Positions 7,025-36,799 of a stretch of 64,000 nucleotides of DNA are shown one piece after another. Position 1 is the stretch's first letter. Every line of letters begins with the position of its first letter. A model generated the notes under the pieces. That model was not told the origin of the DNA. It did no database searches and saw nothing but the letters and a program-made list of their open reading frames with translations. The stretch lies in assembly GCA_027422505.1 (NCBI GenBank), contig JAPQWV010000001.1, positions 6,510,001 through 6,574,000 on the forward strand, written 5' to 3'. The position numbers were made by a program, and so were the translations under genes. Source of the DNA: Craterostigma plantagineum (taxonomy: Eukaryota; Streptophyta; Magnoliopsida; Lamiales; Linderniaceae).

Positions 7025-7036
7025 GCTCTGATACCA
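7025..7036 (-). other. Primer-binding site (initiator tRNA-Met type)
   Basis: The minus strand reads TGGTATCAGAGC three bases inside the 5' LTR, the standard plant copia PBS complementary to the 3' end of initiator tRNA-Met. Confidence 0.95.
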
Positions 7037-7039
7037 CTT

Positions 7040-12353: not shown

Positions 12354-13130
12354 TTTCATGATACTTTTTAGGTAGATGAGGATCAAAATGGGAGGGATAG
12401 AACCTACTATACTAACTACTAACTAAGACAACCAATGATCCTTTCTTACTCGAATCTTATCAACATAAGACCACACAAGTCCCATCCTCGAGAAACAAAT
12501 CCAACACTCAATGATCAAATCACACACAAAAACGGACGATAAAACCAAAACCTCCCACAGCTCATAATAACAGATGCAACACACAATAAGTCACAGTTAT
12601 GGATTCAGAAATAAGAGGACTTACCGTTGTGATGTTCCCATGGCTGGCGCACGGCCACCTCATTCCCTTTCTCGAGCTCGCCGAGAGACTCTCAGAAAGA
12701 AACTTCAGCTGCTACATATGCTCGACGAAGGCAATCCTCGACTCCATCATCCACGAAAGAATCGCGGGAAATATCAAAACCGTCGAACTTCGCCTGCCGA
12801 CTTGTCGAAAACTTCCCGACCCTCAGCACCACACGGCAAAGGAACTGTCATTCCACCTCCACAAGGCGCTCGGAAAGGCCCTAGAAACGTCCAAGGAAGA
12901 ATTTTCGGGAATTTTAAAGAATCTCAAGCCCGACCTACTAATCCACGACGTTGTGGTACCGTGGGCTGGATCGGTGGCTAAGAGGTCGAACGTAGCCACG
13001 GTTCGCTTCAACACCTCTGGCGCAGCAATGCTGTCTTACTTCGTCCACTTGGGGCGTTACCCAGGGGAAGAATACCCTTTTCCTGCAATAAAACTGACCG
13101 AGTTTCAGTTGTCTGTGTTCTTATCTAATA

Positions 13131-13335
13131 TGTTAGGAAATGGACGCCTCTCGAACGAGGATTCAATGTATTTTCTGTATATGCTAGAATTAGGAATCGA
13201 ATTGAGCTATTTGGAGCTCAATCGAACCAATTAAAGCACCCAACACACACACTCTAACAAACAGATTTACGTGGTTCGGCCTCGTCTTTAGGCCTACTCC
13301 ACGGATCAACCGAGCCTCCTTGCTTATTGACCACA
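13131..13335 (-). repeat. LTR 1 (truncated)
   Basis: Starts TGTTAGGAAATGG at the UGT-B junction and follows the LTR for ~205 bp. Around CACAACAC (13331-13340) it jumps into gag sequence, so the rest of the LTR and most of the first internal region are deleted. Confidence 0.85.
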
Positions 13336-13834
13336 ACACAAAAGCAACAAGGCTTGATCCTCGTCCTTGATCTCTTCTCAACGTTTTGCAAATCCAACAC
13401 CAACTTTTGGAATGTGTTAATCTGCTCTTCAATGGCAGATTCTTCCACCATTTGGAACATCTAAAGAGCTTGCTTGAGGTAGAGCCTCCGTGCCAACGAT
13501 TTGGTCATGTATAGTGCTTCCAACTTCTTCCATAGCTCCTCCGCCGAGGTCCGAAGCCACCTTACGAAGCACACTATCCGAGAGGCAGAGGATGATGGCC
13601 AAGAACGCCTTCTCCTCGATCTTCTTCTTTTGAGCCGCGGTTAAGGTCGATGGCTCCATTTCGGCATCCGGTTTCAAGGCTTCCTCCAAACCTTTCTCCA
13701 CGAGCACGGCCTTCATTTTGAGCTTCCACAGCCCAAAATCGTTAGCCCCATTGAACACCTCCATTTCAAGCTTGGTCATTGTGGCCATTTCTCCTGGGAA
13801 TCGAGCTCCTTCGATCCACGCACACCGCACCACT
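13336..13834 (-). pseudogene. Internal region 1 (truncated): gag 5' fragment and PBS-like site
   Basis: Holds only the gag N-terminal frame (MATMTK start at 13788, running to 13429) and the PBS-like stretch next to LTR 2. The gag 3' part, protease and downstream segment are gone. Confidence 0.8.
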
Positions 13835-14621
13835 TGTTCGGAAATAGACGCCTCTCGAACGAGGATTCAACGTACTTTCAGTATATGCTAGAGTTAGGAA
13901 TTGAATTGAGCTATTTGGAGCTCAATCGAACCAATTAAAGCACCAAACACAAACACTCTAACAAACAGATTTACGTGGTTCGGCCTCGTCTTTAGGCCTA
14001 CTCCACGGATCAACTGAGCCTCCTTTCTTATTGATCAATCACAACACGAAAGTTATAGTATGCCGTGCCCTCTACACTTTTCGAGTTTACACCTCACCGT
14101 GATTCTCACTCTATAAGAAACTATGGACTAGCAAATATGCTAGCTCGAAATAGGCTTTCTGATATTTAAAGAGCTGAAACATGAACTGCACATGTCGCGC
14201 GTTTAATCTTCACCGTCTATCTGATCTGATCCAACGTCCCATGGAATGCCACGTCGCACTATGCTTTCTCGCATGTTCAAGCAGAAATCGCGTGACGCCT
14301 CTATTAGTGAACTGGTGCGTTTACTATCATCCGTTGGATCTTCATCTAACGGTCTAAACTCGTCATCTGCGCGATCTATCTCCATTCCATCTGCACCGTC
14401 GATCCTTTTCCCGCGCCATCCTACGAAACGCATTCAATCTCCAGTCTTCAAATCCTGGCCCTCAGATCTGGCGCGTAACGATCGGACGGTGGCTGTAAGT
14501 CGCGACCTCAGCACCTCAGCTCTTTATCATTCCAGCTTCAGCTCTACCCAGTTTCGACCGGCCATGTTCAGCGGCTATTTCCGGCGACCTACGGCGAGTT
14601 TTCGACTCGCCATTCTCGACA
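13835..14621 (-). repeat. LTR 2
   Basis: 787 bp, TGTTCGG...CTCGACA on the plus strand. Diagnostic variants are TCTATCTGATCTG and GGTGCGTTTAC, unlike the later LTRs. Confidence 0.92.
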
Positions 14622-16599
14622 AACTCCACCTCGAGACGGCAAACTCGCGAACCCAACTCCCGGAATCTTCATCTCAGCCCAACTGTGCCCCGAAAGCCGC
14701 CCCAAACTTCACCAAAAAACCAGCCCCGACTCTGTTTCAGTTTCGAGAATCACACTTGCCGAGCTTCGAAACCCCCTCAAAGCTCCACCTCGATCAATAC
14801 GCTCTTGCTCGGTTGATCAACCAGCTCCCCTAGGAGCTGCGAGCCTCAAGAGTGAACTTGCCGACCCCAAGTAGGATTGAAATTTCCCACTTGGAATCGA
14901 CTCGATACTTTGAGCTCATTTCTTCCGTTCGGCTTGAAGAATCCTCCACCCTAGCCTCTTGAGCTACCTCATGAACTCTTCCCCAGCTAGGAATCACCTT
15001 CTTCTTGCCCGTTCTCGCAGCCGAGACCTCAGCTGCTCGAAAATCTGCAAAACAGACATCATCAGTTTTCTCAGAAACTTTGGTTTTCTCCGAAGTTTGC
15101 TCCGAGTTTTCTCCGTCTTCCTCCCCGTTTCCTGAGCTGTTCGCCACCTCAAGATCTTCCTTGCCATGTGGTCTTGAGGTTCCTTCATCCCGTGGCACGA
15201 ACAACTCCATCTCGGGCTCGGAAATCGCGTCGGAAAACCCTGTCTCGAACTGCCTCAGCTTCAGTAGCAGTTTTCAAAATTCCAGCCGCGAGCTTCACTT
15301 TTGGGCCGACTGTTCTACCTCTTCCCGAGCTTTCTGGGGCACCTCTCCCACACCATTAGGACCACCATACTCCCTAGTTTGCTGTTGTGCCTTTGCCTCC
15401 ACAGAGCATCCCTCGAGCACGTAGATACAGCGTCATCTTCGGCCTGACAGAATCAGCCTACCTTGCCTTTTGACTAGAATCTTCCCGGCTGCGATTTGCG
15501 TGTTGAATCCTCTCCTATCCAAAGCTCCGATGGATATAAGGTTCCTCCTCAACTCAGTGACATACCTAACATCTTTGAGGACACTCAACACCCTATTAGC
15601 AAGCCTCATTCTAATCGAACCATAACCATAAATTTCGAAACTTTTACCATCACCTACCTTAACCGTTTTACCTCTTAGCTCCTTGAAGTCATGCAACCAC
15701 TCTCTCTTGCATGTTATATGGAAGCTAGAGCCTGAGTCTAGGATCCATTCTTCCCTCCTCTCCACCTCGGAAATGGCTAACACCTCGGCATACTCAAAGC
15801 CATCATCGACATGGCTAGTTTGGTTGGAACTTCCCCGAATCTGCAAGTCTTGAAATGACCCACCTCATTGCAATTGAAGCACCTCTTAGGCTCAGCAACC
15901 TCCTTCCCCTTGCTCTTCTTCCACCTTGGATTGGATTTATGTTGCACATTCAACATTTCGGCCGAGTTCAGTTCAAGTTTTGGCACCAACCTTGTATTGA
16001 GCTGCTTTGTGCTTAGGGCTGCCATCACATCTTCCATGCTAAGCTTCTCCCTTCCGTATAGAAGTGCCTCCTTGAAGTAGTCATGGCTTTTGGGCAGAGA
16101 ACACAAAAGCAACAAGGCTTGATCCTCGTCCTTGATCTCTTCTCAACGTTTTGCAAATCCAACACCAACTTTTGGAATGTGTTAATCTGCTCTTCAATGG
16201 CAGATTCTTCCACCATTTGGAACCTCTAAAGAGCTTGCTTGAGGTAGAGCCTCCGTGCCAACGATTTGGTCATGTATAGTGCTTCCAACTTCTTCCATAG
16301 CTCCTCCGCCGAGGTCTGAAGCCACCTTACGAAGCACACTATCCGAGAGGCAGAGGATGATGGCCAAGAACGCCTTCTCCTTGATCTTCTTCTTTTGAGC
16401 CGCGGTTAAGGTCGATGGCTCCATTTCGGCATCCGGTTTCAAGGCTTCCTCCAAGCCTTTCTCCACGAGCACAGCCTTCATTTTGAGCTTCCACAGCTCA
16501 AAATCGTTAGCCCCATTGAACAGCTCCATTTCGAACTTGGTCATCGTGGCCATTTCTCCTGGGAATCGAGCTCCTTCGATCCACGCTCACCGCACCACT
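14622..16599 (-). pseudogene. Internal region 2: gag, zinc knuckle, protease; all frames broken
   Basis: Read on the minus strand. Gag starts with MATMTKFEMELFNGANDF at 16553 and closes at 16194 after a frameshift. A second gag segment (VMAALSTKQLNT) and the knuckle start CFNCNEVGHFK lie in 15777-16115. The protease frame, 15433-15846, contains EEWILDSGSSFHIT (catalytic DSG) and ends shortly after a GAG-pre-integrase-like stretch. A 13-bp deletion at about 15852 removes the last knuckle Cys. A Glu/Ser-rich 126-aa frame of unknown role (14830-15210) fills the end near LTR 2. The same plan applies to all later units. Confidence 0.88.
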
Positions 16600-17387
16600 T
16601 GTTCGGAAATGGACGCCTCTCAAACGAGGATTCAATGTATTTTCAGTATATGCTAGAGTTAGGAATTGAATTGAGCTATTTGGAGCTCAATCGAACCAAT
16701 TAAAGCACCAAACACACACACTCTAACAAACAGATTTACGTGGTTCGGCCTCGTCTTTAGGCCTACTCCACGGATCAACCGAGCCTCCTTTCTTATTGAT
16801 CAATCACAACACGAAAGTTATAGTATGCCGTGCCCTCTACACTTTTCGTGTTTACACCTCACTGTGATTCTCACTCTATAAGAAACTATGGACTCGCAAA
16901 GATGAAAGCTCGAAATAGGCATTCTGATATTTAAAGAGCTGAAACATGAACTGCACATGTCGCGCGTTTAATTTTCACCGTCCATCAGATTTGATCCAAC
17001 GTCCCATGGAATGCCACGTCGCACTATGCTTTCTCGCATGTTCAAGCAGAAATCGCGTGACGCCTCTATTAGTGAACTGGCGCGTTTACTATCATCCGTT
17101 GGATCTTCATCTAACGGTCTAAACTCGTCATCTGCGCGATCTATCTCCATTCCATCTGCACCGTCGATCCTTTTCCCGCACCATCCTACGAACCGCATTC
17201 AATCTCCAGTCTTCAAATCCTGGCCCTCAGATCTGGCGCGCAACGATCGGACGGTGGCTGTAAGTCGCGACCTCAGCACCTCAGCTCTTTTATCATTCCA
17301 GCTTCAGCTCAACCCAGTTTCGACCGGCCATGTTCAGCGGCTATTTCCGGCGACCTACGGCGAGTTTTCGACTCGCCATTCTCGACA
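16600..17387 (-). repeat. LTR 3
   Basis: 788 bp. It shares CAAACGAGG and TCCATCAGATTTG with LTR 4, pairing these two. Confidence 0.92.
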
Positions 17388-19359
17388 AACTCCACCTCGA
17401 GACGGCAAACTCGCGAACCCAACTCCCGGAATCTTCATCTCAGCCCCACTGCGCCCCGAAAACCGCACCAAACTTCACCAAAAAACCAGCCCCGACTCTG
17501 TTTCAGTTTCAAGAATCACACTTGCCGAGCTTCGAAACCCCCTCAAAGCTCCACCTCGATCAATACGCTCTTGCTCGGTTGATCAACCAGCTCCCCTAGG
17601 AGCTGCGAGCCTCAAGAGTGAACTTGCCGACCCCAAGTAGGATTGAAATTTCCCACTTGGAATCGACTCGATACTTTGAGCTCATTTCTTCCGTTCGGCT
17701 TGAAGAACCCTCCACCCTAGCCTCTTGAGCTACCTCATGAACTCTTCCCCAGCTAGGAATCACCTTCTCTTGCCCTTTCTCACAGCCGAGACCTCAGCTG
17801 CTCGAAAATCTGCAAAACAGACATCATCAGTTTTCTCAGAAACTTTGGTTTTCTCCGAAGTTTGCTCCGAGTTTTCTCCGTCTTCCTCCCCGTTTCCGGT
17901 GCTGTTCTCCACCTCAAGATCTTCCTTGCCATGTGGTCTTGAGGTTCCTTCATCCCGTGGCACGAACAACTCCATCTCGGGCTCGGAAATTGCGTCGCAA
18001 AACCCTGTCTCGAACTGCCTCAGCTTCAGTAGCAGTTTTCAAAATTCCAGCCGCGAGCTTCACTTTTGGGCCGACTGTTCTACCTCTTCCCGAGCTTTCT
18101 GGGGCACCTCTCCCACACCATTAGGACCACCATACTCCCTAGTTTGATGTTGTGCCTTTGCCTCCACAGAGCATCCCTCGAGCACGTAGATACAGCGTCA
18201 TCTTCGGCCTGACAGAATCAGCCTACCTTGCCTTTTGACTAGAATCTTCCCGGCTGCGATTTGCGTGTTGAATCCTCTCCTATCCAAAGCTCCGATGGAT
18301 ATAAGGTTCCTCCTCAACTCAGTGACATACCTAACATCTTTGAGGACACTCAACACCCCATTAGCAAGCCTCATTCTAATCGAACCATAGCCATATATTT
18401 CGAAACTTTTACCATCACCTACCTTAACCGTTTTACCTCTTAGCTCCTTGAAGTCATGCAACCACTCTCTCTTGCATGTTATATGGAAGCTAGAGCCTGA
18501 GTCTAGGATCCATTCTTCCCTCCTCTCCTCCTCGGAAATGGCTAACACCTCGGCATACTCAAAGCCATCATCGACATGGCTAGTTTGGTTGGAACTTCCC
18601 CGAATCTGCAACTCTTGAAATGACCCACCTCATTGCAATTGAAGCACCTCTTAGGCTCAGCAACCTCCTTCCCCTTGCTCTTCTTCCACCTTGGATTGGA
18701 TTTATGTTGCACATTCAACGGCAGAGTTCAGTTCAAGTTTTGGCACCAACCTTGTATTGAGCTGCTTTGTGCTTAGGGCTGCCATCACATCTTCCATGCT
18801 AAGCTTCTCCCTTCCGTATAGAAGTGCCTCCTTGAAGTAGTCATGGCTTTTGGGCAGAGAACACAAAAGTAACAAGGCTTGATCCTCGTCCTTGATCTCT
18901 TCTCAACGTTTTGCTAATCCAACACCAACTTTTGGAATGTGTTAATCTGCTCTTCAATGGCAGATTCTTCCACCATTTGGAACCTCTAAAGAGCTTGCTT
19001 GAGGTAGAGCCTCCGTGCCAACGATTTGGTCATGTATAGTGCTTCCAACTTCTTCCATAGCTCCTCCGCCGAGGTCCGAAGCCACCTTACGAAGCACACT
19101 ATCCGAGAGGCAGAGGATGATGGCCAAGAACGCCTTCTCCTTGATCTTCTTCTTTTGAGCCGCGGTTAAGGTCGATGGCTCCATTTCGGCATCCGGTTTC
19201 AAGGCTTCCTCGAAGCCTTTCTCCACGAGCACAGCCTTCATTTTGAGCTTCCACAGCCCAAAATCGTTAGCCCCATTGAACACCTCCATTTCGAGCTTGG
19301 TCATCGTGGCCATTTCTCCTGGGAATCGAGCTCCTTCGATCCACGCTCACCGCACCACT
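17388..19359 (-). pseudogene. Internal region 3: gag-protease remnant
   Basis: Gag start at 19313 and protease frame 18198-18611. Like region 2 it has the 13-bp zinc-knuckle deletion (about 18611). A small extra deletion/rearrangement at about 18719 removes part of the conserved AACATTTCGGCC segment. The Glu/Ser-rich frame is shortened (17760-17975). Confidence 0.88.
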
Positions 19360-20147
19360 TGTTCGGAAATGGACGTCTCTCAAACGAGGATTCAATGTAT
19401 TTTCAGTATATGCTAGAGTTAGGAATTGAATTGAGCTATTTGGAGCTCAATCGAACCAATTAAAGCACCAAACACACACACTCTAACAAACAGATTTACG
19501 TGGTTCGGCCTCGCCTTTAGGCCTACTCCACGGATCAACCGAGCCTCCTTTCTTATTGATCAATCACAACACGAAAGTTATAGTATGCCGTGCCCTCTAC
19601 ACTTTTCGTGTTTACACCTCACTGTGATTCTCACTCTATAAGAAACTATGGACTCGCAAAGATGAAAGCTCGAAATAGGCATTCTGATATTTAAAGAGCT
19701 GAAACATGAACTGCACATGTCGCGCGTTTAATTTTCACCGTCCATCAGATTTGATCCAACGTCCCATGGAATGCCACGTCGCACTATGCTTTCTCGCATG
19801 TTCAAGCAGAAATCGCGTGACGCCTCTATTAGTGAACTGGCGCGTTTACTATCATCCGTTGGATCTTCATCTAACGGTCTAAACTCGTCATCTGCGCGAT
19901 CTATCTCCATTCCATCTGCACCGTCGATCCTTTTCCCGCACCATCCTACGAACCGCATTCAATCTCCAGTCTTCAAATCCTGGCCCTCAGATCTGGCGCG
20001 CAACGATCGGACGGTGGCTGTAAGTCGCGACCTCAGCACCTCAGCTCTTTTATCATTCCAGCTTCAGCTCAACCCAGTTTCGACCGGCCATGTTCAGCGG
20101 CTATTTCCGGCGACCTACGGCGAGTTTTCGACTCGCCATTCTCGACA
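19360..20147 (-). repeat. LTR 4
   Basis: 788 bp, closest to LTR 3 by shared variants. Confidence 0.92.
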
Positions 20148-22135
20148 AACTCCACCTCGAGACGGCAACTCGCGAACCCAACTCCCGGAATCTTCATCTC
20201 AGCCCCACTGCGCCCCGAAAACCGCACCAAACTTCACCAAAAAACCAGCCCCGACTCTGTTTCAGTTTCGAGAATCACACTTGCCGAGCTTCGAAACCCC
20301 CTCAAAGCTCCACGTCGATCAATACGCTCTTGCTCGGTTGATCAACCAGCTCCCCTAGGAGCTGCGAGCCTCAAGAGTGAACTTGCTGACCCCAAGTAGG
20401 ATTGAAATTTCCCACTTGGAATCGACTCGATACTTTGAGCTCATTTCTTCCGTTCGGCTTGAAGAACCCTCCACCCTAGCCTCTTGAGCTACCTCATGAA
20501 CTCTTCCCCAGCTAGGAATCACCTTCTTCTTGCCCTTTCTCACAGCCGAGACCTCAGCTGCTCGAAAATCTGCAAAACAGACATCATCAGTTTTCTCAGA
20601 AACTTTGGTTTTCTCCGAAGTTTGCTCCGAGTTTTCTCCGTCTTCCTCCCCGTTTCCGGTGCTGTTCTCCACCTCAAGATCTTCCTTGCCATGTGGTCTT
20701 GAGGTTCCTTCATCCCGTGGCACGAACAACTCCATCTCGGGCTCGGAAATCGCATCGCAAAACCCTGTCTCGAACTGCCTCAGCTTCAGTAGCAGTTTTC
20801 AAATTCCAGCCGCGAGCTTCACTTTTGGGCCGACTGTTCTACCTCTTCCCAAGCTTTCTGGGGCACCTCTCCCACACCATTAGGACCACCATACTCCCTT
20901 GTTTGCTGTTGTGCCTTTGCCTCCACAGAGCATCCCTCGAGCACGTAGATACAGCGTCATCTTCGGCCTGACAGAATCAGCCTACCTTGCCTTTTGACTA
21001 GAATCTTCCCGGCTGCGATTTGCGTGTTGAATCCTCTCCTATCCAAAGCTCCGATGGATATAAGGTTCCTCCTCAACTCAGGGACATACCTAACATCTTT
21101 GAGGACACTCAACACCCCATTAGCAAGCCTCATTCTAATCGAACCATAGCCATATATTTCGAAACTTTTACCATCACCTACCTTAACCGTTTTACCTCTT
21201 AGCTCCTTGAAGTCATGCAACCACTCTCTCTTGCATGTTATATGGAAGCTAGAGCCTGAGTCTAGGATCCATTCTTCCCTCCTCTCCTCCTCGGAAATGG
21301 CTAACACCTCGGCATACTCAAAGCCATCATCGACATGGCTAGTTTGGTTGGAACTTCCCCGAATCTGCAACTTTGGGCAATTCCTCTTGAAATGACCCAC
21401 CTCATTGCAATTGAAGCACCTCTTAGGCTCAGCAACCTCCTTCCCCTTGCTCTTCTTCCACCTTGGATTGGATTATGTTGCACATTCAACATTTCGGCCG
21501 AGTTCAGTTCAAGTTTTGGCACCAACCTTGTATTGAGCTGCTTTGTGCTTAGGGCTGCCATCACATCTTCCATGCTAAGCTTCTCCCTTCCGTATAGAAG
21601 TGCCTCCTTGAAGTAGTCATGGCTTTTGGGCAGAGAACACAAAAGCAACAAGGCTTGATCCTCGTCCTTGATCTCTTCTCAACGTTTTGCAAATCCAACA
21701 CCAACTTTTGGAATGTGTTAATCTGCTCTTCAATGGCAGATTCTTCCACCATTTGGAACCTCTAAAGAGCTTGCTTGAGGTAGAGCCTCCGTGCCAACGA
21801 TTTGGTCATGTATAGTGCTTCCAACTTCTTCCATAGCTCCTCCGCCGAGGTCCGAAGCCACCTTACGAAGCACACTATCCGAGAGGCAGAGGATGATGGC
21901 CAAGAACGCCTTCTCCTTGATCTTCTTCTTTTGAGCCGCGGTTAAGGTCGATGGCTCCATTTCGGCATCCGGTTTCAAGGCTTCCTCCACACCTTTCTCC
22001 ACGAGCACGGCCTTCATTTTGAGCTTCCACAGCCCAAAATCGTTAGCCCCATTGAACACCTCCATTTCAAGCTTGGTCATCGTGGCCATTTCTCCTGGGA
22101 ATCGAGCTCCTTCGATCCACGCTCACCGCACCACT
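20148..22135 (-). pseudogene. Internal region 4: gag-protease remnant
   Basis: Gag start at 22089, second gag frame 21301-21651, protease frame 20957-21400 with an intact knuckle end (GHFKRNC). It carries the 1-bp deletion at about 21473 (GGATTATG instead of GGATTTATG) that marks regions 4 to 9. Confidence 0.88.
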
Positions 22136-22924
22136 TGTTCGGAAATGGACGCCTCTCGAACGAGGATTTAACGTATTTTCAGTATATGCTAGAGTTAGGA
22201 AACGAATTGAGCTATTTGGAGCTCAATCGAACCAATTAAAGCACCAAACACACACACTCTAACAAACAGATTTACGTGGTTCGGCCTCATCTTTAGGCCT
22301 ACTCCACGGATCAACCGAGCCTCCTTTCTTATTGATCAATCACAAACACGAAAGTTATAGTATGCCGTGCCCTCTACACTTTTCGTGTTTACACCTCACT
22401 GTGATTCTCACTCTATAAGAAACTATGGACTCGCAAAGATGAAAGCTCGAAATAGGCATTCTGATATTTAAAGAGCTGAAACATGAACTACACATGTCGC
22501 GCGTTTAATTTTCACCGTCCATCAGATCTGATCCAACGTCCCATGGAATGCCACGTCGCACTATGCTTTCTCGCATGTTCAAGCAGAAATCGCGTGACGC
22601 CTCTATTAGTGAACTGGCGCGTTTACTATCATCCGTTGGATCTTCATCTAACGGTCTAAACTCGTCATCTGCGCAATCTATCTCCATTCCATCTGCACCG
22701 TCGATCCTTTTCCCGCACCATCCTACGAACCGCATTCAATCTCCAGTCTTCAAATCCTGGCCCTCAGATCTGGCGCGCAACGATCGGACGGTGGCTGTAA
22801 GTCGCGACCTCAGCACCTCAGCTCTTTTATCATTCCAGCTTCAGCTCAACCCAGTTTCGACCGGCCATGTTCAGCGGCTATTTCCGGCGACCTACGGCGA
22901 GTTTTCGACTCGCCATTCTCGACA
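22136..22924 (-). repeat. LTR 5
   Basis: 789 bp. GAGGATTTAACG, CCTCATCTTT and GAACTACACATG are shared with LTR 8. Confidence 0.92.
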
Positions 22925-24913
22925 AACTCCACCTCGAGACGGCAAACTCGCGAACCCAACTCCCGGAATCTTCATCTCAGCCCCACTGCGCCCCGAAAAC
23001 CGCACCAAACTTCACCAAAAAACCAGCCCCGACTCTGTTTCAGTTTCGAGAATCACACTTGCCGAGCTTCGAAACCCCCTCAAAGCTCCACCTCGATCAA
23101 TACGCTCTTGCTCGGTTGATCAACCAGCTCCCCTAGGAGCTGCGAGCCTCAAGAGTGAACTTGCCGACCCCAAGTAGGATTGAAATTTCCCACTTGGAAT
23201 CGACTCGATACTTTGAGCTCATTTCTTCCGTTCGGCTTGAAGAACCCTCCACCCTAGCCTCTTGAGCTACCTCATGAACTCTTCCCCAGCTAGGAATCAC
23301 CTTCTTCTTGCCCTTTCTCACAGCCGAGACCTCAGCTGCTCGAAAATCTGCAAAACAGACATCATCAGTTTTCTCAGAAACTTTGGTTTTCTCCGAAGTT
23401 TGCTCCGAGTTTTCTCCGTCTTCCTCCCCGTTTCCGGTGCTGTTCTCCACCTCAAGATCTTCCTTGCCATGTGGTCTTGAGGTTCCTTCATCCCGTGGCA
23501 CGAACAACTCCATCTCGGGCTCGGAAATCGCGTCGCAAAACCCTGTCTCGAACTGCCTCAGCTTCAGTAGCAGTTTTCAAAATTCTAGCCGCGAGCTTCA
23601 CTTTTGGGCCGACTGTTCTACCTCTTCCCGAGCTTTCTGGGGCACCTCTCCCACACCATTAGGACCACCATACTCCCTAGTTTGCTGTTGTGCCTTTGCC
23701 TCCACAGAGCATCCCTCGAGCACGTAGATACAGCGTCATCTTCGGCCTGACAGAATCAGCCTACCTTGCCTTTTGACTAGAATCTTCCCGGCTGCGATTT
23801 GCGTGTTGAATCCTCTCCTATCCAAAGCTCCGATGGATATAAGGTTCCTCCTCAACTCAGGGACATACCTAACATCTTTGAGGACACTCAACACCCCATT
23901 AGCAAGCCTCATTCTAATCGAACCATAGCCATATATTTCGAAACTTTTACCATCACCTACCTTAACCGTTTTACCTCTTAGCTCCTTGAAGTCATGCAAC
24001 CACTCTCTCTTGCATGTTATATGGAAGCTAGAGCCTGAGTCTAGGATCCATTCTTCCCTCCTCTCCTCCTCGGAAATGGCTAACACCTCGGCATACTCAA
24101 AGCCATCATCGACATGGCTAGTTTGGTTGGAACTTCCCCGAATCTGCAACTTTGGGCAATTCCTCTTGAAATGACCCACCTCATTGCAATTGAAGCACCT
24201 CTTAGGCTCAGCAACCTCCTTCCCCTTGCTCTTCTTCCACCTTGGATTGGATTATGTTGCACATTCAACATTTCGGCCGAGTTCAGTTCAAGTTTTGGCA
24301 CCAACCTTGTATTGAGCTGCTTTGTGCTTAGGGCTGCCATCACATCTTCCATGCTAAGCTTCTCCCTTCCGTATAGAAGTGCCTCCTTGAAGTAGTCATG
24401 GCTTTTGGGCAGAGAACACAAAAGCAACAAGGCTTGATCCTCGTCCTTGATCTCTTCTCAACGTTTTGCAAATCCAACACCAACTTTTGGAATGTGTTAA
24501 TCTGCTCTTCAATGGCAGATTCTTCCACCATTTGGAACCTCTAAAGAGCTTGCTTGAGGTAGAGCCTCCGTGCCAACGATTTGGTCATGTATAGTGCTTC
24601 CAACTTCTTCCATAGCTCCTCCGCCGAGGTCCGAAGCCACCTTACGAAGCACACTATCCGAGAGGCAGAGGATGATGGCCAAGAACGCCTTCTCCTTGAT
24701 CTTCTTCTTTTGAGCCGCGGTTAAGGTCGATGGCTCCATTTCGGCATCCGGTTTCAAGGCTTCCTCCAACCTTTCTCCACGAGCACGGCCTTCATTTTGA
24801 GCTTCCACAGCCCAAAATCGTTAGCCCCATTGAACACCTCCATTTCAAGCTTGGTCATCGTGGCCATTTCTCCTGGGAATCGAGCTCCTTCGATCCACGC
24901 TCACCGCACCACT
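22925..24913 (-). pseudogene. Internal region 5: gag-protease remnant
   Basis: A private 2-bp deletion at about 24770 disrupts the gag N-terminus (open frame 24509-24808 lacks the usual MATMTK start). Protease frame 23736-24179. Confidence 0.88.
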
Positions 24914-25699
24914 TGTTCGGAAATGGACGCCTCTCGAAAGGATTCAACGTATTTTCAGTATATGCTAGAGTTAGGAAACGAATTGAGCTATTTGGAGCTC
25001 AATCGAACCAATTAAAGCACCAAACACACACACTCTAACAAACAGATTTACGTGGTTCGGCCTCGTCTTTAGGCCTACTCCACGGATCAACCGAGCCTCC
25101 TTTCTTATTGATCAATCACAACACGAAAGTTATAGTATGCCGTGCCCTCTACACTTTTCGTGTTTACACCTCACTGTGATTCTCACTCTATAAGAAACTA
25201 TGGACTCGCAAAGATGAAAGCTCGAAATAGGCATTATGATATTTAAAGAGCTGAAACATGAACTGCACATGTCGCGCGTTTAATTTTCACCGTCCATCAG
25301 ATCTGATCCAACGTCCCATGGAATGCCACGTCGCACTATGCTTTCTCGCATGTTCAAGCAGAAATCGCGTGACGCCTCTATTAGTGAACTGGCGCGTTTA
25401 CTATCATCCGTTGGATCTTCATCTAACGGTCTAAACTCGTCATCTGCGCAATCTATCTCCATTCCATCTGCACCGTCGATCCTTTTCCCGCACCATCCTA
25501 CGAACCGCATTCAATCTCCAGTCTTCAAATCCTGGCCCTCAGATCTGGCGCGCAACGATCGGACGGTGGCTGTAAGTCGCGACCTCAGCACCTCAGCTCT
25601 TTTATCATTCCAGCTTCAGCTCAACCCAGTTTCGACCGGCCATGTTCAGCGGCTATTTCCGGCGACCTACGGCGAGTTTTCGACTCGCCATTCTCGACA
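24914..25699 (-). repeat. LTR 6
   Basis: 786 bp. A private 3-bp deletion gives CTCTCGAAAGGATTC near its left edge. Confidence 0.92.
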
Positions 25700-27686
25700 A
25701 ACTCCACCTCGAGACGGCAAACTCGCGAACCCAACTCCCGGAATCTTCATCTCAGCCCCACTGCGCCCCAAAAACCGCACCAAACTTCACCAAAAAACCA
25801 GCCCCGACTCTGTTTCAGTTTCGAGAATCACACTTGCCGAGCTTCGAAACCCCCTCAAAGCTCCACCTCGATCAATACGCTCTTGCTCGGTTGATCAACC
25901 AGCTCCCCTAGGAGCTGCGAGCCTCAAGAGTGAACTTGCCGACCCCAAGTAGGATTGAAATTTCCCACTTGGACGACTCGATACTTTGAGCTCATTTCTT
26001 CCGTTCGGCTTGAAGAACCCTCCACCCTAGCCTCTTGAGCTACCTCATGAACTCTTCCCCAGCTAGGAATCACCTTCTTCTTGCCCTTTCTCGCAGCCGA
26101 GACCTCAGCTGCTCGAAAATCTGCAAAACAGACATCATCAGTTTTCTCAGAAACTTTGGTTTTCTCCGAAGTTTGCTCCGAGTTTTCTCCGTCTTCCTCC
26201 CCGTTTCCTGAGCTGTTCTCCACCTCAAGATCTTCCTTGCCATGTGGTCTTGAGGTTCCTTCATCCCGTGGCACGAACAACTCCATCTCGGGCTCGGAAA
26301 TCGCGTCGCAAAACCCTGTCTCGAACTGCCTCAGCTTCAGTAGCAGTTTTCAAATTCTAGCCGCGAGCTTCACTTTTGGGCCGACTGTTCTACCTCTTCC
26401 CGAGCTTTCTGGGGCACCTCTCCCACACCATTAGGACCACCATACTCCCTAGTTTGCTGTTGTGCCTTTGCCTCCACAGAGCATCCCTCGAGCACGTAGA
26501 TACAGCGTCATCTTCGGCCTGACAGAATCAGCCTACCTTGCCTTTTGACTAGAATCTTCCCGGCTGCGATTTGCGTGTTGAATCCTCTCCTATCCAAAGC
26601 TCCGATGGATATAAGGTTCCTCCTCAACTCAGGGACATACCTAACATCTTTGAGGACACTCAACACCCCATTAGCAAGCCTCATTCTAATCGAACCATAG
26701 CCATATATTTCGAAACTTTTACCATCACCTACCTTAACCGTTTTACCTCTTAGCTCCTTGAAGTCATGCAACCACTCTCTCTTGCATGTTATATGGAAGC
26801 TAGAGCCTGAGTCTAGGATCCATTCTTCCCTCCTCTCCTCCTCGGAAATGGCTAACACCTCGGCATACTCAAAGCCATCATCGACATGGCTAGTTTGGTT
26901 GGAACTTCCCCGAATCTGCAACTTTGGGCAATTCCTCTTGAAATGACCCACCTCATTGCAATTGAAGCACCTCTTAGGCTCAGCAACCTCCTTCCCCTTG
27001 CTCTTCTTCCACCTTGGATTGGATTATGTTGCACATTCAACATTTCGGCCGAGTTCAGTTCAAGTTTTGGCACCAACCTTGTATTGAGCTGCTTTGTGCT
27101 TAGGGCTGCCATCACATCTTCCATGCTAAGCTTCTCCCTTCCGTATAGAAGTGCCTCCTTGAAGTAGTCATGGCTTTTGGGCAGAGAACACAAAAGCAAC
27201 AAGGCTTGATCCTCGTCCTTGATCTCTTCTCAACGTTTTGCAAATCCAACACCAACTTTTGGAATGTGTTAATCTGCTCTTCAATGGCAGATTCTTCCAC
27301 CATTTGGAACCTCTAAAGAGCTTGCTTGAGGTAGAGCCTCCGTGCCAACGATTTGGTCATGTATAGTGCTTCCAACTTCTTCCATAGCTCCTCCGCCGAG
27401 GTCCGAAGCCACCTTACGAAGCACACTATCCGAGAGGCAGAGGATGATGGCCAAGAACGCCTTCTCCTTGATCTTCTTCTTTTGAGCCGCGGTTAAGGTC
27501 GATGGCTCCATTTCGGCATCCGGTTTCAAGGCTTCCTCCACACCTTTCTCCACGAGCACGGCCTTCATTTTGAGCTTCCACAGCCCAAAATCGTTAGCCC
27601 CATTGAACACCTCCATTTCAAGCTTGGTCATCGTGGCCATTTCTCCTGGGAATCGAGCTCCTTCGATCCACGCTCACCGCACCACT
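25700..27686 (-). pseudogene. Internal region 6: gag-protease remnant
   Basis: Gag start at 27640, protease frame 26508-26951. It has the short form CACTTGGACGACTCG (about 25967) shared with regions 7 and 8. Confidence 0.88.
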
Positions 27687-28474
27687 TGTTCGGAAATGGA
27701 CGCCTCTCGAATGAGGATTCAACGTATTTTCAGTATATGCTAGAGTTAGGAAACGAATTGAGCTATTTGGAGCTCAATCGAACCAATTAAAGCACCAAAC
27801 ACACGCACTCTAACAAACAGATTTACGTGGTTCGGCCTCGTCTTTAGGCCTACTCCACGGATCAACCGAGCCTCCTTTCTTATTGATCAATCACAACACG
27901 AAAGTTATAGTATGACGTGCCCTCTACACTTTTCGTGTTTACACCTCACTGTGATTCTCACTCTATAAGAAACTATGGACTCGCAAAGATGAAAGCTCGA
28001 AATAGGCTTTATGATATTTAAAGAGCTGAAACATGAACTGCACATGTCGCGCGTTTAATCTTCACCGTCTATCAGATCTGATCCAACGTCCCATGGAATG
28101 CCACGTCGCACTATGCTTTCTCGCATGTTCAAGCAGAAATCGCGTGACGCCTCTATTAGTGAACTGGCGCATTTACTATCATCCGTTGGATCTTCATCTA
28201 ACGGTCTAAACTCGTCATCTGCGCAATCTATCTCCATTCCATCTGCACCGTCGATCCTTTTCCCGCACCATCCTACGAACCGCATTCAATCTCCAGTCTT
28301 CAAATCCTGGCCCTCAGATCTGGCGCGCAACGATCGGACGGTGGCTGTAAGTCGCGACCTCAGCACCTCAGCTCTTTTATCATTCCAGCTTCAGCTCAAC
28401 CCAGTTTCGACCGGCCATGTTCAGCGGCTATTTCCGGCGACCTACGGCGAGTTTTCGACTCGCCATTCTCGACA
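27687..28474 (-). repeat. LTR 7
   Basis: 788 bp. GAATGAGGATTC, CACACGCACTC, TATGACGTGCC and GGCGCATTTAC are shared with LTRs 9 and 10. Confidence 0.92.
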
Positions 28475-30462
28475 AACTCCACCTCGAGACGGCAAACTCG
28501 CGAACCCAACTCCAGGAATCTTCATCTCAGCCCCACTGCGCCCCAAAAACCGCACCAAACTTCACCAAAAAACCAGCCCCGACTCTGTTTCAGTTTCGAG
28601 AATCACACTTGCCGAGCTTCGAAACCCCCTCAAAGCTCCACCTCGATCAATACGCTCTTGCTCGGTTGATCAACCAGCTCCCCTAGGAGCTGCGAGCCTC
28701 AAGAGTGAACTTGCCGACCCCAAGTAGGATTGAAATTTCCCACTTGGACGACTCGATACTTTGAGCTCATTTCTTCCGTTCGGCTTGAAGAACCCTCCAC
28801 CCTAGCCTCTTGAGCTACCTCATGAACTCTTCCCCAGCTAGGAATCACCTTCTTCTTGCCCTTTCTCGCAGCCGAGACCTCAGCTGCTCGAAAATCTGCA
28901 AAACAGACATCATCAGTTTTCTCAGAAACTTTGGTTTTCTCCGAAGTTTGCTCCGAGTTTTCTCCGTCTTCCTCCCCGTTTCCTGAGCTGTTCTCCACCT
29001 CAAGATCTTCCTTGCCATGTGGTCTTGAGGTTCCTTCATCCCGTGGCACGAACAACTCCATCTCGGGCTCGGAAATCGCGTCGCAAAACCCTGTCTCGAA
29101 CTGCCTCAGCTTCAGTAGCAGTTTTCAAAATTCTAGCCGCGAGCTTCACTTTTGGGCCGACTGTTCTACCTCTTCCCGAGCTTTCTGGGGCACCTCTCCC
29201 ACACCATTAGGACCACCATACTCCCTAGTTTGCTGTTGTGCCTTTGCCTCCACAGAGCATCCCTCGAGCACGTAGATACAGCGTCATCTTCGGCCTGACA
29301 GAATCAGCCTACCTTGCCTTTTGACTAGAATATTCCCGGCTGCGATTTGCGTGTTGAATCCTCTCCTATCCAAAGCTCCGATGGATATAAGGTTCCTCCT
29401 CAACTCAGGGACATACCTAACATCTTTGGGGACACTCAACACCCCATTAGCAAGCCTCATTCTAATCGAACCATAGCCATATATTTCGAAACTTTTACCA
29501 TCACCTACCTTAACCGTTTTACCTCTTAGCTCCTTGAAGTCATGCAACCACTCTCTCTTGCATGTTATATGGAAGCTAGAGCCTGAGTCTAGGATCCATT
29601 CTTCCCTCCTCTCCTCCTCGGAAATGGCTAACACCTCGGCATACTCAAAGCCATCATCGACATGGCTAGTTTGGTTGGAACTTCCCCGAATCTGCAACTT
29701 TGGGCAATTCCTCTTGAAATGACCCACCTCATTGCAATTGAAGCACCTCTTAGGCTCAGCAACCTCCTTCCCCTTGCTCTTCTTCCACCTTGGATTGGAT
29801 TATGTTGCACATTCAACATTTCGGCCGAGTTCAGTTCAAGTTTTGGCACCAACCTTGTATTGAGCTGCTTTGTGCTTAGGGCTGCCATCACATCTTCCAT
29901 GCTAAGCTTCTCCCTTCCGTATAGAAGTGCCTCCTTGAAGTAGTCATGGCTTTTGGGCAGAGAACACAAAAGCAACAAGGCTTGATCCTCGTCCTTGATC
30001 TCTTCTCAACGTTTTGCAAATCCAACACCAACTTTTGGAATGTGTTAATCTGCTCTTCAATGGCAGATTCTTCCACCATTTGGAACCTCTAAAGAGCTTG
30101 CTTGAGGTAGAGCCTCCGTGCCAACGATTTGGTCATGTATAGTGCTTCCAACTTCTTCCATAGCTCCTCCGCCGAGGTCCGAAGCCACCTTACGAAGCAC
30201 ACTATCCGAGAGGCAGAGGATGATGGCCAAGAACGCCTTCTCCTTGATCTTCTTCTTTTGAGCCGCGGTTAAGGTCGATGGCTCCATTTCGGCATCCGGT
30301 TTCAAGGCTTCCTCCACACCTTTCTCCACGAGCACGGCCTTCATTTTGAGCTTCCACAGCCCAAAATCGTTAGCCCCATTGAACACCTCCATTTCAAGCT
30401 TGGTCATCGTGGCCATTTCTCCTGGGAATCGAGCTCCTTCGATCCACGCTCACCGCACCACT
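28475..30462 (-). pseudogene. Internal region 7: gag-protease remnant
   Basis: Gag start at 30416, protease frame 29284-29727. Short form at about 28742 as in regions 6 and 8. Confidence 0.88.
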
Positions 30463-31250
30463 TGTTCGGAAATGGACGCCTCTCGAACGAGGATTTAACG
30501 TATTTTCAGTATATGCTAGAGTTAGGAAACGAATTGAGCTATTTGGAGTTCAATCGAACCAATTAAAGCACCAAACACACACACTCTAACAAACAGATTT
30601 ACGTGGTTCGGCCTCATCTTTAGGCCTACTCCACGGATCAACCGAGCCTCCTTTCTTATTGATCAATCACAACACGAAAGTTATAGTATGCCGTGCCCTC
30701 TACACTTTTCGTGTTTACACCTCACTGTGATTCTCACTCTATAAGAAACTATGGACTCGCAAAGATGAAAGCTCGAAATAGGCATTCTGATATTTAAAGA
30801 GCTGAAACATGAACTACACATGTCGCGCGTTTAATTTTCACCGTCCATCAGATCTGATCCAACGTCCCATGGAATGCCACGTCGCACTATACTTTCTCGC
30901 ATGTTCAAGCAGAAATCGCGTGACGCCTCTATTAGTGAACTGGCGCGTTTACTATCATCCGTTGGATCTTCATCTAACGGTCTAAACTCGTCATCTGCGC
31001 AATCTATCTCCATTCCATCTGCACCGTCGATCCTTTTCCCGCACCATCCTACGAACCGCATTCAATCTCCAGTCTTCAAATCCTGGCCCTCAGATCTGGC
31101 GCGCAACGATCGGACGGTGGCTGTAAGTCGCGACCTCAGCACCTCAGCTCTTTTATCATTCCAGCTTCAGCTCAACCCAGTTTCGACCGGCCATGTTCAG
31201 CGGCTATTTCCGGCGACCTACGGCGAGTTTTCGACTCGCCATTCTCGACA
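30463..31250 (-). repeat. LTR 8
   Basis: 788 bp. Shares the LTR 5 variants; private changes CTATACTTTCTC and TTGGAGTTCAAT. Confidence 0.92.
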
Positions 31251-33238
31251 AACTCCACCTCGAGACGGCAAACTCGCGAACCCAACTCCCGGAATCTTCA
31301 TCTCAACCCCACTGCGCCCCGAAAACCGCACCAAACTTCACCAAAAAACCAGCCCCGACTCTGTTTCAGTTTCGAGAATCACACTTGCCGAGCTTCGAAA
31401 CCCCCTCAAAGCTCCACCTCGATCAATACGCTCTTGCTCGGTTGATCAACCAGCTCCCCTAGGAGCTGCGAGCCTCAAGAGTGAACTTGCCGACCCCAAG
31501 TAGGATTGAAATTTCCCACTTGGACGACTCGATACTTTGAGCTCATTTCTTCCGTTCGGCTTGAAGAACCCTCCACCCTAGCCTCTTGAGCTACCTCATG
31601 AACTCTTCCCCAGCTAGGAATCACCTTCTTCTTGCCCTTTCTCGCAGCCGAGACCTCAGCTGCTCGAAAATCTGCAAAACAGACATCATCAGTTTTCTCA
31701 GAAACTTTGGTTTTCTCCGAAGTTCGCTCCGAGTTTTCTCCGTCTTCCTCCCCGTTTCCTGAGCTGTTCTCCACCTCAAGATCTTCCTTGCCATGTGGTC
31801 TTGAGGTTCCTTCATCCCATGGCACGAACAACTCCATCTCGGGCTCGGAAATCGCGTCGCAAAACCCTGTCTCGAACTGCCTCAGCTTCAGTAGCAGTTT
31901 TCAAAATTCTAGCCGCGAGCTTCACTTTTGGGCCGACTGTTCTACCTCTTCCCGAGCTTTCTGGGGCACCTCTCCCACACCATTAGGACCACCATACTCT
32001 CTAGTTTGCTGTTGTGCCTTTGCCTCCACAGAGCATCCCTCGAGCACGTAGATACAGCGTCATCTTCGGCCTGACAGAATCAGCCTACCTTGCCTTTTGA
32101 CTAGAATCTTCCCGGCTGCGATTTGCGTGTTGAATCCTCTCCTATCCAAAGCTCCGATGGATATAAGGTTCCTCCTCAACTCAGGGACATACCTAACATC
32201 TTTGAGGACACTCAACACCCCATTAGCAAGCCTCATTCTAATCGAACCATAGCCATATATTTCGAAACTTTTACCATCACCTACCTTAACCGTTTTACCT
32301 CTTAGCTCCTTGAAGTCATGCAACCACTCTCTCTTGCATGTTATATGGAAGCTAGAGCCTGAGTCTAGGATCCATTCTTCCCTCCTCTCCTCCTCGGAAA
32401 TGGCTAACACCTCGGCATACTCAAAGCCATCATCGACATGGCTAGTTTGGTTGGAACTTCCCCGAATCTGCAACTTTGGGCAATTCCTCTTGAAATGACC
32501 CACCTCATTGCAATTGAAGCACCTCTTAGGCTCAGCAACCTCCTTCCCCTTGCTCTTCTTCCACCTTGGATTGGATTATGTTGCACATTCAACATTTCGG
32601 CCGAGTTCAGTTCAAGTTTTGGCACCAACCTTGTATTGAGCTGCTTTGTGCTTAGGGCTGCCATCACATCTTCCATGCTAAGCTTCTCCCTTCCGTATAG
32701 AAGTGCCTCCTTGAAGTAGTCATGGCTTTTGGGCAGAGAACACAAAAGCAACAAGGCTTGATCCTCGTCCTTGATCTCTTCTCAACGTTTTGCAAATCCA
32801 ACACCAACTTTTGGAATGTGTTAATCTGCTCTTCAATGGCAGATTCTTCCACCATTTGGAACCTCTAAAGAGCTTGCTTGAGGTAGAGCCTCCGTGCCAA
32901 CGATTTGGTCATGTATAGTGCTTCCAACTTCTTCCATAGCTCCTCCGCCGAGGTCCGAAGCCACCTTACGAAGCACACTATCCGAGAGGCAGAGGATGAT
33001 GGCCAAGAACGCCTTCTCCTTGATCTTCTTCTTTTGAGCCGCGGTTAAGGTCGATGGCTCCATTTCGGCATCCGGTTTCAAGGCTTCCTCCACACCTTTC
33101 TCCACGAGCACGGCCTTCATTTTGAGCTTCCACAGCCCAAAATCGTTAGCCCCATTGAACACCTCCATTTCAAGCTTGGTCATCGTGGCCATTTCTCCTG
33201 GGAATCGAGCTCCTTCGATCCACGCTCACCGCACCACT
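31251..33238 (-). pseudogene. Internal region 8: gag-protease remnant
   Basis: Gag start at 33192, protease frame 32060-32503, Glu/Ser-rich frame 31475-31837. Confidence 0.88.
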
Positions 33239-34026
33239 TGTTCGGAAATGGACGCCTCTCGAATGAGGATTCAACGTATTTTCAGTATATGCTAGAGTTA
33301 GGAAACGAATTGAGCTATTTGGAGCTCAATCGAACCAATTAAAGCACCAAACACACGCACTCTAACAAACAGATTTACGTGGTTCGGCCTAGTCTTTAGG
33401 CCTACTCCACGGATCAACCGAGCCTCCTTTCTTATTGATCAATCACAACACGAAAGTTATAGTATGACGTGCCCTCTACACTTTTCGTGTTTACACCTCA
33501 CTGTGATTCTCACTCTATAAGAAACTATGGACTCGCAAAGATGAAAGCTCGAAATAGGCTTTATGATATTTAAAGAGCTGAAACATGAACTGCACATGTC
33601 GCGCGTTTAATCTTCACCGTCTATCAGATCTGATCCAACGTCCCATGGAATGCCACGTCGCACTATGCTTTCTCGCATGTTCAAGCAGAAATCGCGTGAC
33701 GCCTCTATTAGTGAACTGGCGCATTTACTATCATCCGTTGGATCTTCATCTAACGGTCTAAACTCGTCATCTGCGCAATCTATCTCCATTCCATCTGCAC
33801 CGTCGATCCTTTTCCCGCACCATCCTACGAACCGCATTCAATCTCCAGTCTTCAAATCCTGGCCCTCAGATCTGGCGCGCAACGATCGGACGGTGGCTGT
33901 AAGTCGCGACCTCAGCACCTCAGCTCTTTTATCATTCCAGCTTCAGCTCAACCCAGTTTCGACCGGCCATGTTCAGCGGCTATTTCCGGCGACCTACGGC
34001 GAGTTTTCGACTCGCCATTCTCGACA
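33239..34026 (-). repeat. LTR 9
   Basis: 788 bp, with LTR 7/10-type variants. Confidence 0.92.
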
Positions 34027-36012
34027 AACTCCACCTCGAGACGGCAAACTCGCGAACCCAACTCCAGGAATCTTCATCTCAGCCCCACTGCGCCCCAAAA
34101 ACCGCACCAAACTTCACCAAAAAACCAGCCCCGACTCTGTTTCAGTTTCGAGAATCACACTTGCCGAGCTTCGAAACCCCCTCAAAGCTCCACCTCGATC
34201 AATACGCTCTTGCTCGGTTGATCAACCAGCTCCCCTAGGAGCTGCGAGCCTCAAGAGTGAACTTGCCGACCCCAAGTAGGATTGAAATTTCCCACTATCG
34301 ACTCGATACTTTGAGCTCATTTCTTCCGTTCGGCTTGAAGAACCCTCCACCCTAGCCTCTTGAGCTACCTCATGAACTCTTCCCCAGCTAGGAATCACCT
34401 TCTTCTTGCCCTTTCTCGCAGCCGAGACCTCAGCTGCTCGAAAATCTGCAAAACAGACATCATCAGTTTTCTCAGAAACTTTGGTTTTCTCCGAAGTTTG
34501 CTCCGAGTTTTCTCCGTCTTCCTCCCCGTTTTCTGAGCTGTTCTCCACCTCAAGATCTTCCTTGCCATGTGGTCTTGAGGTTCCTTCATCCCGTGGCACG
34601 AACAACTCCATCTCGGGCTCGGAAATCGCGTCGCAAAACCCTGTCTCGAACTGCCTCAGCTTCAGTAGCAGTTTTCAAAATTCTAGCCGCGAGCTTCACT
34701 TTTGGGCCGACTGTTCTACCTCTTCCCGAGCTTTCTGGGGCACCTCTCCCACACCATTAGGACCACCATACTTCCTAGTTTGATGTTGTGCCTTTGCCTC
34801 CACAGAGCATCCCTCGAGCACGTAGATACAGCGTCATCTTCGGCCTGACAGAATCAGCCTACCTTGCCTTTTGACTAGAATTTTCCCGGCTGCGATTTGC
34901 GTGTTGAATCCTCTCCTATCCAAAGCTCCGATGGATATAAGGTTCCTCCTCAACTCAGGGACATACCTAACATCTTTGAGTACACTCAACACCCCATTAG
35001 CAAGCCTCATTCTAATCGAACCATAGCCATATATTTCGAAACTTTTACCATCACCTACCTTAACCGTTTTACCTCTTAGCTCCTTGAAGTCATGCAACCA
35101 CTCGCTCTTGCATGTTATATGGAAGCTAGAGCCTGAGTCTAGGATCCATTCTTCCCTCCTCTCCTCCTCGGAAATGGCTAACACCTCGGCATACTCAAAG
35201 CCATCATCGACATGGCTAGTTTGGTTGGAACTTCCCCGAATCTGCAACTTTGGGCAATTCCTCTTGAAATGACCCACCTCATTGCAATTGAAGCACCTCT
35301 TAGGCTCAGCAATCTCCTTCCCCTTGCTCTTCTTCCACCTTGGATTGGATTATGTTGCACATTCAACATTTCGGCCGAGTTCAGTTCAAGTTTTGGCACC
35401 AACCTTGTATTGAGCTGCTTTGTGCTTAGGGCTGCCATCACATCTTCCATGCTAAGCTTCTCCCTTCCGTATAGAAGTGCCTCCTTGAAGTAGTCATGGC
35501 TTTTGGGCAGAGAACACAAAAGCAACAAGGCTTGATCCTCGTCCTTGATCTCTTCTCAACGTTTTGCAAATCCAACACCAACTTTTGGAATGTGTTAATC
35601 TGCTCTTCAATGGCAGATTCTTCCACCATTTGGAACCTCTAAAGAGCTTGCTTGAGGTAGAGCCTCCGTGCCAACGATTTGGTCATGTATAGTGCTTCCA
35701 ACTTCTTCCATAGCTCCTCCGCCGAGGTCCGAAGCCACCTTACGAAGCACACTATCCGAGAGGCAGAGGATGATGGCCAAGAACGCCTTCTCTTTGATCT
35801 TCTTCTTTTGAGCCGCGGTTAAGGTCGATGGCTCCATTTCGGCATCCGGTTTCAAGGCTTCCTCCACACCTTTCTCCACGAGCACGGCCTTCATTTTGAG
35901 CTTCCACAGCCCAAAATCGTTAGCCCCATTGAACACCTCCATTTCAAGCTTGGTCATCGTGGCCATTTCTCCTGGGAATCGAGCTCCTTCGATCCACGCT
36001 CACCGCACCACT
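34027..36012 (-). pseudogene. Internal region 9: gag-protease remnant
   Basis: Gag start at 35966, protease frame 34834-35277 (CKSEWLHD variant). A private form CCCACTATCGACTCG occurs at about 34291. Confidence 0.88.
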
Positions 36013-36799
36013 TGTTCGGAAATGGACGCCTCTCGAATGAGGATTCAACATATTTTCAGTATATGCTAGAGTTAGGAAACGAATTGAGCTATTTGGAGCT
36101 CAATCGAACCAATTAAAGCACCAAACACACGCACTCTAACAAACAGATTTACGTGGTTCGGCCTCATCTTTAGGCCTACTCCACGGATCAACCGAGCCTC
36201 CTTTCTTATTGATCAATCACAACACGAAAGCTATAGTATGACGTGCCCTCTACACTTTTCGTGTTTACACCTCACTGTGATTCTCACTCTATAAGAAACT
36301 ATGGACTCGCAAAGATGAAAGCTCGAAATAGGCTTTATGATATTTAAAGAGCTGAAACATGAACTGCACATGTCGCGCGTTTAATCTTCACCGTCTATCA
36401 GATCTGATCCAACGTCCCATGGAATGCCACGTCGCACTATGCTTTCTCGCATGTTCAAGCAGAAATCGCGTGACGCCTCTATTAGTGAACTGGCGCATTT
36501 ACTATCATCCGTTGGATCTTCATCTAACGGTCTAAACTCGTCATCTGCGCAATCTATCTCCATTCCATCTGCACCGTCGATCCTTTTCCCGCACCATCCT
36601 ACGAACCGCATTCAATCTCCAGTCTTCAAATCCTGGCCCTCAGATCTGGCGCGCAACGATCGGACGGTGGCTGTAAGTCGCGACCTCAGCACCTCTGCTC
36701 TTTATCATTCCAGCTTCAGCTCAACCCAGTTTTGACCGGCCATGTTCAGCGGCTATTTCCGGCGACCTACGGCGAATTTCCGGCTCGCCATTCTCGACA
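36013..36799 (-). repeat. LTR 10 (outer 5' LTR)
   Basis: 787 bp, ending CTCGACA. It is directly followed by the second target copy TAATC and UGT-B coding sequence. Its variants match LTRs 7 and 9. Confidence 0.92.

Follow-up and report, generated by a model that had tools for sequence, protein, structure and literature searches.

A Head-to-Tail Array of a Copia-Like LTR Retroelement at a Single Site Inside a UGT Gene of Craterostigma plantagineum

The stretch of Craterostigma plantagineum DNA analysed here, called the window, comprises 64,000 nucleotides (assembly GCA_027422505.1, contig JAPQWV010000001.1, positions 6,510,001 to 6,574,000 of the forward strand) and contains two neighbouring UGT genes, UGT-A and UGT-B, the second of which is interrupted at positions 13131-36799 by ten long terminal repeats (LTRs) and nine internal regions of one minus-strand element. 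A sequence-only reading made before this analysis had described the interruption as a 23.7-kb array of one LTR element at a single site, and both self-comparison and the motifs at the LTR edges bore this out. LTRs and internal regions alternate, adjacent units share LTRs, and an LTR stands at each end, which is the architecture of a tandem LTR retrotransposon; the count of ten LTRs and nine internal regions made in that reading stands with the reservation that the first of each is only a remnant. The array and its flanks are laid out below, with LTR and internal (INT) edges placed by end motifs unless another basis is given.

12599..13130, plus strand: UGT-B 5' part (open reading frame, ORF, 12599-13234; aligns with UGT-A)
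13126..13130, no strand: left target duplication TAATA (sequence at array edge)
13131..13339, minus strand: LTR0 remnant (13131-13344 matches the other LTRs in self-comparison)
13340..13834, minus strand: INT0, remnant internal region with the gag start, fused to LTR0 (self-match from 13335 on)
13835..14621, minus strand: LTR1
14622..16599, minus strand: INT1, 1978 bp, with the most private substitutions
16600..17387, minus strand: LTR2
17388..19359, minus strand: INT2, 1972 bp
19360..20147, minus strand: LTR3
20148..22135, minus strand: INT3, 1988 bp
22136..22924, minus strand: LTR4
22925..24913, minus strand: INT4, 1989 bp
24914..25699, minus strand: LTR5
25700..27686, minus strand: INT5, 1987 bp
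27687..28474, minus strand: LTR6
28475..30462, minus strand: INT6, 1988 bp
30463..31250, minus strand: LTR7, closest to LTR4 rather than to its neighbours
31251..33238, minus strand: INT7, 1988 bp
33239..34026, minus strand: LTR8, 1 difference from LTR6
34027..36012, minus strand: INT8, 1986 bp
36013..36799, minus strand: LTR9, outer right LTR
36800..36804, no strand: right target duplication TAATC (sequence at array edge)
36800..37624, plus strand: 3' part of UGT-B, which has a frameshift of its own (ORFs; UDPGT PF00201, 6e-14, for 37130-37621)

The ten left LTR edges, which are the starting positions of LTR0 to LTR9 above, were obtained by self-comparison and a search for end motifs, and nine right edges, 14621 through 36799, by end motif. 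Spacings between successive left edges were 704, 2765, 2760, 2776, 2778, 2773, 2776, 2776, and 2774 bp, so that the near-constant period of 2760-2778 bp claimed previously holds for eight of the nine intervals but not for the first. Besides the one remnant of each kind, there are nine full LTRs of 786-789 bp and eight full internal regions of 1972-1989 bp. In the leftmost piece an LTR portion of about 210 bp is joined to an internal-region portion of about 495 bp (704 bp together); the bases AACAC at the fusion are carried there by both parent stretches, and the junction can be placed only to within a few bases. Since LTR0 runs straight into INT0, one LTR and one internal region have been mostly lost. 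When the array was compared with itself at a shift of one unit, the match was 98.9% over 20.7 kb, which puts an origin of the array by chance out of the question.

Both outer ends of the array are exact LTR termini. The single target duplication reported around it is present in the form of TAATA and TAATC, but it is imperfect, with identity at four of five bases; under equal base frequencies, random 5-mers agree at four or more positions with a chance of 1.6%. When the flanks were joined with either copy of the duplication, the UGT frame passed the site without a stop and aligned with that of UGT-A. The exact LTR termini and the rejoined frame are stronger evidence for the edges than the duplication is. 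The earlier statement that the UGT-B frame joins across the array was thus upheld at the site itself; about 320 bp downstream, however, there is a second frame change (ORFs 36732-37283 and 37130-37624, seen in translation and in tblastx against UGT-A), so the UGT-B frame is broken irrespective of the array. The 5' part of UGT-B gave a weak match to the GT28 N-terminal profile (14.6 bits; cut-off 26.2). UGT-A (8869-11209) is likewise broken, by an insert and a mid-gene frame change, and judged from their frames alone both genes look dead.

The frame change in UGT-A lies at about 9220-9260, upstream of the insert, where the ORFs 8869-9393 and 9260-9802 overlap in different frames, as tblastx also indicated. 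The insert itself (991 bp, 9714-10704) has inverted ends that nearly match, CAATGTTG.../...CAACACTG, and is bounded by an 8-bp duplication, GCTGGAGA, whose two copies, at 9706-9713 and 10705-10712, are identical; we take it to resemble a non-autonomous element of the hAT type.

An origin of the array in more than one insertion of the same family, whether independent or nested, was considered and rejected, and we give this explanation almost no credence. No support for it was found: the LTRs are shared, the internal regions abut the LTRs directly, and the spacing of the edges leaves no room for host sequence. Recombination between neighbouring insertions would delete host sequence, yet the UGT frame rejoins.

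The coding content of the unit was examined by a Pfam scan of the open stretches of at least 60 amino acids in unit 3, which covered 20 of 24 such stretches, the four that straddle unit edges being left out. Three of them gave the following matches.

20960..21472, minus strand: INT3 open stretch with a zinc knuckle and Pol_BBD (zf-CCHC 30.0 bits, cut-off 20.8; Pol_BBD 97.1, cut-off 27)
21304..21678, minus strand: INT3 open stretch with a match to positions 118-161 of the gag profile, read in a frame different from that of the gag start (PF14223 23.0 bits, cut-off 27)
21733..22122, minus strand: INT3 open stretch with a match to positions 1-57 of the gag profile (PF14223 19.2 bits, cut-off 27)

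Retrotransposon domains are therefore recognisable in the unit, with Pol_BBD and zf-CCHC over their cut-offs, and two collinear PF14223 pieces (1-57 and 118-161), both under the cut-off of 27 and in two frames, hint at a gag of Copia type; the assignment of these blocks to one gag is based on the split profile match and on the known form of Copia gag. A stop between two gag blocks is common to all nine internal regions, and a frame change between two later gag blocks is found in all eight that reach that far. Because the units have both lesions in common, the copied unit was coding-dead before copying; proteins of other elements could have moved it. The common lesions also argue against independent insertions. 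No match to integrase, reverse transcriptase, or RNase H was obtained at E 0.01 in the 20 stretches scanned. In Copia-type elements integrase is encoded ahead of reverse transcriptase; as neither was found, which fits an internal deletion, we call the element Copia-like, or Copia-derived, rather than an intact Copia. Nor does it have the one intact gag ORF of a TR-GAG element, its gag having the stop and the frame change and being split over two frames in unit 3. There was no Rfam match to a Cassandra-like 5S sequence in the window at the gathering score, weaker matches not being sought, and a search for a tRNA gene found none. Two bases past the LTR end is a primer-site candidate, TGGT, and a purine-rich stretch lies ahead of the other LTR; the usual primer site is that for Met-tRNA, with which TGGT agrees only over the first bases, and we make no claim for it. 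A protein search with a 147-amino-acid ORF gave one match among 107 candidates, to a 144-amino-acid protein encoded on a 1573-base ENA contig (38% identity over 78%).

The full units differ from one another in ways that depend on their position. Substitutions were counted in gap-free two-state columns of internal regions 1-8 and LTRs 1-9, the truncated unit 0 being excluded. There were 39 single-unit substitutions in the internal regions and 28 in the LTRs, and 11 and 16 columns, respectively, with at least two units on each side. The private substitutions fell mostly at the edges of the array: internal regions 1-8 had 17, 6, 5, 0, 0, 1, 4, and 6, and LTRs 1-9 had 16, 0, 2, 0, 0, 0, 2, 1, and 7. 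Equal counts were rejected for the internal regions (p 2.5e-7) and the LTRs (p 1.3e-12), and also with unit 1 omitted (p 0.027 and 3.8e-4, with small expected counts). These tests assume independent changes, an assumption weakened by the shared ancestry of units; they are evidence against a star-like origin without identifying the process behind the pattern. Divergence also followed distance, the mean for internal regions rising from 0.57% between neighbours to 1.67% seven units apart; this correlation was equalled by only 6 of all 40,320 unit orders, or 6 of 5,040 without unit 1, and the corresponding correlation for LTRs 1-9 by 12 of 20,000 random orders. Shared variants in the internal regions were contiguous above expectation (49 of 20,000 permutations). 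Among units 1-8, a 13-bp deletion is common to units 1 and 2 alone, and at one and the same place in the internal region (about 25970, 28745, 31521, and 34297) units 5-7 have a 2-bp deletion and unit 8 a different one of 4 bp.

The sequence-only reading had offered two origins, an insertion with local amplification or the integration of a concatemer. The edge substitutions, the distance gradient, and the indels shared by neighbours support amplification better, and a concatemer integrated in one step, followed by independent mutation, does not fit, since without later homogenisation it predicts even private counts and no positional order, both of which were rejected. A concatemer of several units, whether a rolling-circle product of a one-LTR circle or a result of read-through RNA or template switching, might instead have integrated once and had its centre homogenised afterwards by conversion or exchange. 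The single target duplication is equally compatible with such an event, Cassandra transcripts of two to five units have been reported (PMC7215508), and tandem integration is left open in PMC11899658; nevertheless, this explanation requires the same exchange process as one insertion followed by amplification, plus an extra step, and we regard it as unlikely.

We propose, as the probable origin of the array, one insertion followed by repeated unequal exchange, with or without conversion. A non-autonomous Copia-like LTR element with 787-bp LTRs and an internal region of about 1.99 kb would have inserted once in the UGT-B coding region; its two LTRs, on sister or homologous chromatids, would then have undergone an unequal exchange that gave a two-unit tandem with one LTR in common. 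More unequal exchanges in unit register, perhaps accompanied by conversion, would have raised the number to at least nine internal regions, with the central units staying similar and those at the edges diverging. An offset of more than one unit in at least one exchange may have left LTR7 of the LTR4 type and LTR8 of the LTR6 type, and a later deletion between short shared bases would have taken out the greater part of the first LTR and internal region. The sequence itself shows the layout of the array, its one bounded site, the rise of divergence with distance, the excess of private changes at the edges, and the lesions in common; that exchanges took place, in which order, and when the deletion happened is what we infer from these. 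Of the two proposals published for such tandems, one is exchange between LTRs (PMC11899658).

Several points weigh against this proposal. With LTRs 2-8 alone the distance correlation was weaker (646 of 20,000), and the contiguity of shared variants in the LTRs was not significant (1725 of 20,000 permutations). The weak signal from the LTRs arises because LTR7 is out of place: only 2 of 788 sites separate it from LTR4, against 13 and 14 for its own neighbours, and a single site separates LTR8 from LTR6. An exchange offset by more than one unit would yield this pattern. Moreover, conversion acting in an array of different origin would produce a very similar pattern, and the comparison was confined to units of the array.

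Over the first 205 alignment columns, LTR0 had 8-12 differences from LTRs 1-9 (12/201 against LTR9), although LTR0 is short and belongs to the end of the LTR that varies more; in these columns LTR1 and LTR9 had 10 differences, and the pairs LTR6-LTR8 and LTR4-LTR7 had 1/205 each. With a substitution rate of 1.3e-8 per site per year, as used for rice, LTR0 and LTR9 (13/215, junction included) would have separated about 2.4 million years ago and the closest LTR pairs about 0.05-0.06 million years ago; with the alternative rate of 7e-9 the values become 4.5 and about 0.09-0.11 million years. We rely only on the contrast between old and young, the dates themselves being unreliable.

The number of units was read from the assembly alone, and the assembler might have joined or expanded a shorter array and so given a wrong copy number. 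Tandem arrays are indeed hard to assemble, mostly with too few copies as the result (PMC7215508). Every full unit, however, can be told from the others, exact matches within the array extend over no more than 1390 bp, which is less than one unit, and the internal variants are ordered along the array. The distinct units and the short exact matches mean that the array is not a loop of identical copies, and long reads could separate the units. We consider an assembly error quite improbable; the distinctness of the units argues for a true array without proving their number.

Arrays of this kind are known. LTR-sharing tandems are common in plants: one rice genome gave 74 candidates, of which 66 were clearly LTR elements and 28 clear tandems, 10 of these 28 having perfect 5-nucleotide duplications, and a pangenome gave 266; tandem LTR elements in kangaroo centromeres are cited there as well (PMC11899658). 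The rice, Arabidopsis, almond, and cotton tandems of that study (Morales-Diaz et al. 2025) resemble the present array in their alternating, shared LTRs and single insertion and, as far as the imperfect TAATA/TAATC allows, in a 5-nucleotide end duplication, and their origin by exchange or by tandem integration was left open there. They differ in that the two loci detailed have two internal regions and Gypsy elements make up 82% of the 28 clear rice tandems, whereas the present array has eight full internal regions, a Copia-like element, and a readable gradient. The generalisation that tandem LTR elements usually have two or three units agrees with the TRIM arrays, which occur in 35 of 43 genomes and of which, in maize, 63 of 93 consist of three LTRs and two internal regions (PMC4717578), but Cassandra provides a longer precedent, with arrays of up to 13 LTRs and 12 internal regions, about 6 kb, detected by polymerase chain reaction with inverted primers, some with truncated end units (PMC7215508). 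TRIM and Cassandra arrays have the same architecture as this one; their units, however, are small and non-coding, whereas the present unit, at 2.77 kb, retains traces of gag, a zinc knuckle, and Pol_BBD, and the window gave no 5S match. The maize repeats CRM1TR and CRM4TR also form tandems from an LTR element and are locally homogenised, with conversion between LTRs proposed for their growth; they are built from part of a Gypsy LTR and untranslated region, CRM1TR forming 44 arrays at two pericentromeric loci (PMC3648361), whereas here the unit is a whole element at one site inside a gene. TR-GAG elements are likewise LTR elements with gag and without the other enzymes, but they have a single GAG ORF (PMC8704663), whereas in the present element gag is broken and a Pol_BBD stretch is retained. 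Transposon-derived satellites have been reviewed (PMC12628747), and plant circles, which are not decisive for this array, are treated in PMC10255303. In the literature searched, which did not extend to most subscription journals, we met no gag-bearing LTR element arrayed in equally many whole units, and we do not claim that none exists. The array is an unusually long and informative case of an already known type of structure.

Satellites are long arrays of many copies, usually in more than one place, and eight full units at this one site make the previous expression 'satellite in formation' an analogy only. It is conceivable, if doubtful, that the array is an early satellite still growing, in which a dead retroelement inside a gene, out of the retrotransposition cycle, would spread by crossing-over alone, with copy number varying between individuals. 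Eight individually marked full units at one site hold more history than the two-unit cases, and they favour exchange after insertion, on a question of formation left open in PMC11899658. Such an array would also offer a way for a retroelement to become a satellite-like repeat within a gene.

Other repeats and genes lie elsewhere in the window. A Copia-type element at 1092-7965 has terminal repeats (1092-2016 and 7040-7965) that are 99.1% identical, with a gag ORF of 368 amino acids (PF14223, 1.8e-19) and other minus-strand ORFs between them. The minus strand at 44089-45810 contains an uninterrupted ORF of 573 amino acids for a PPR protein with an E motif. Together, the UGT, PPR, and retroelement genes suggest a flowering-plant host. 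Two tandem repeats were also found, one at 53948-55366 with 3.2 copies of a 441-bp unit that has internal repeats of 22-23 bp, and one at 60497-61148 with 5.6 copies of a 116-bp unit (alternatively about 59 bp); the latter is adjoined by a minus-strand pol ORF at 61817-63943, in which the order is reverse transcriptase, RNase H, integrase.

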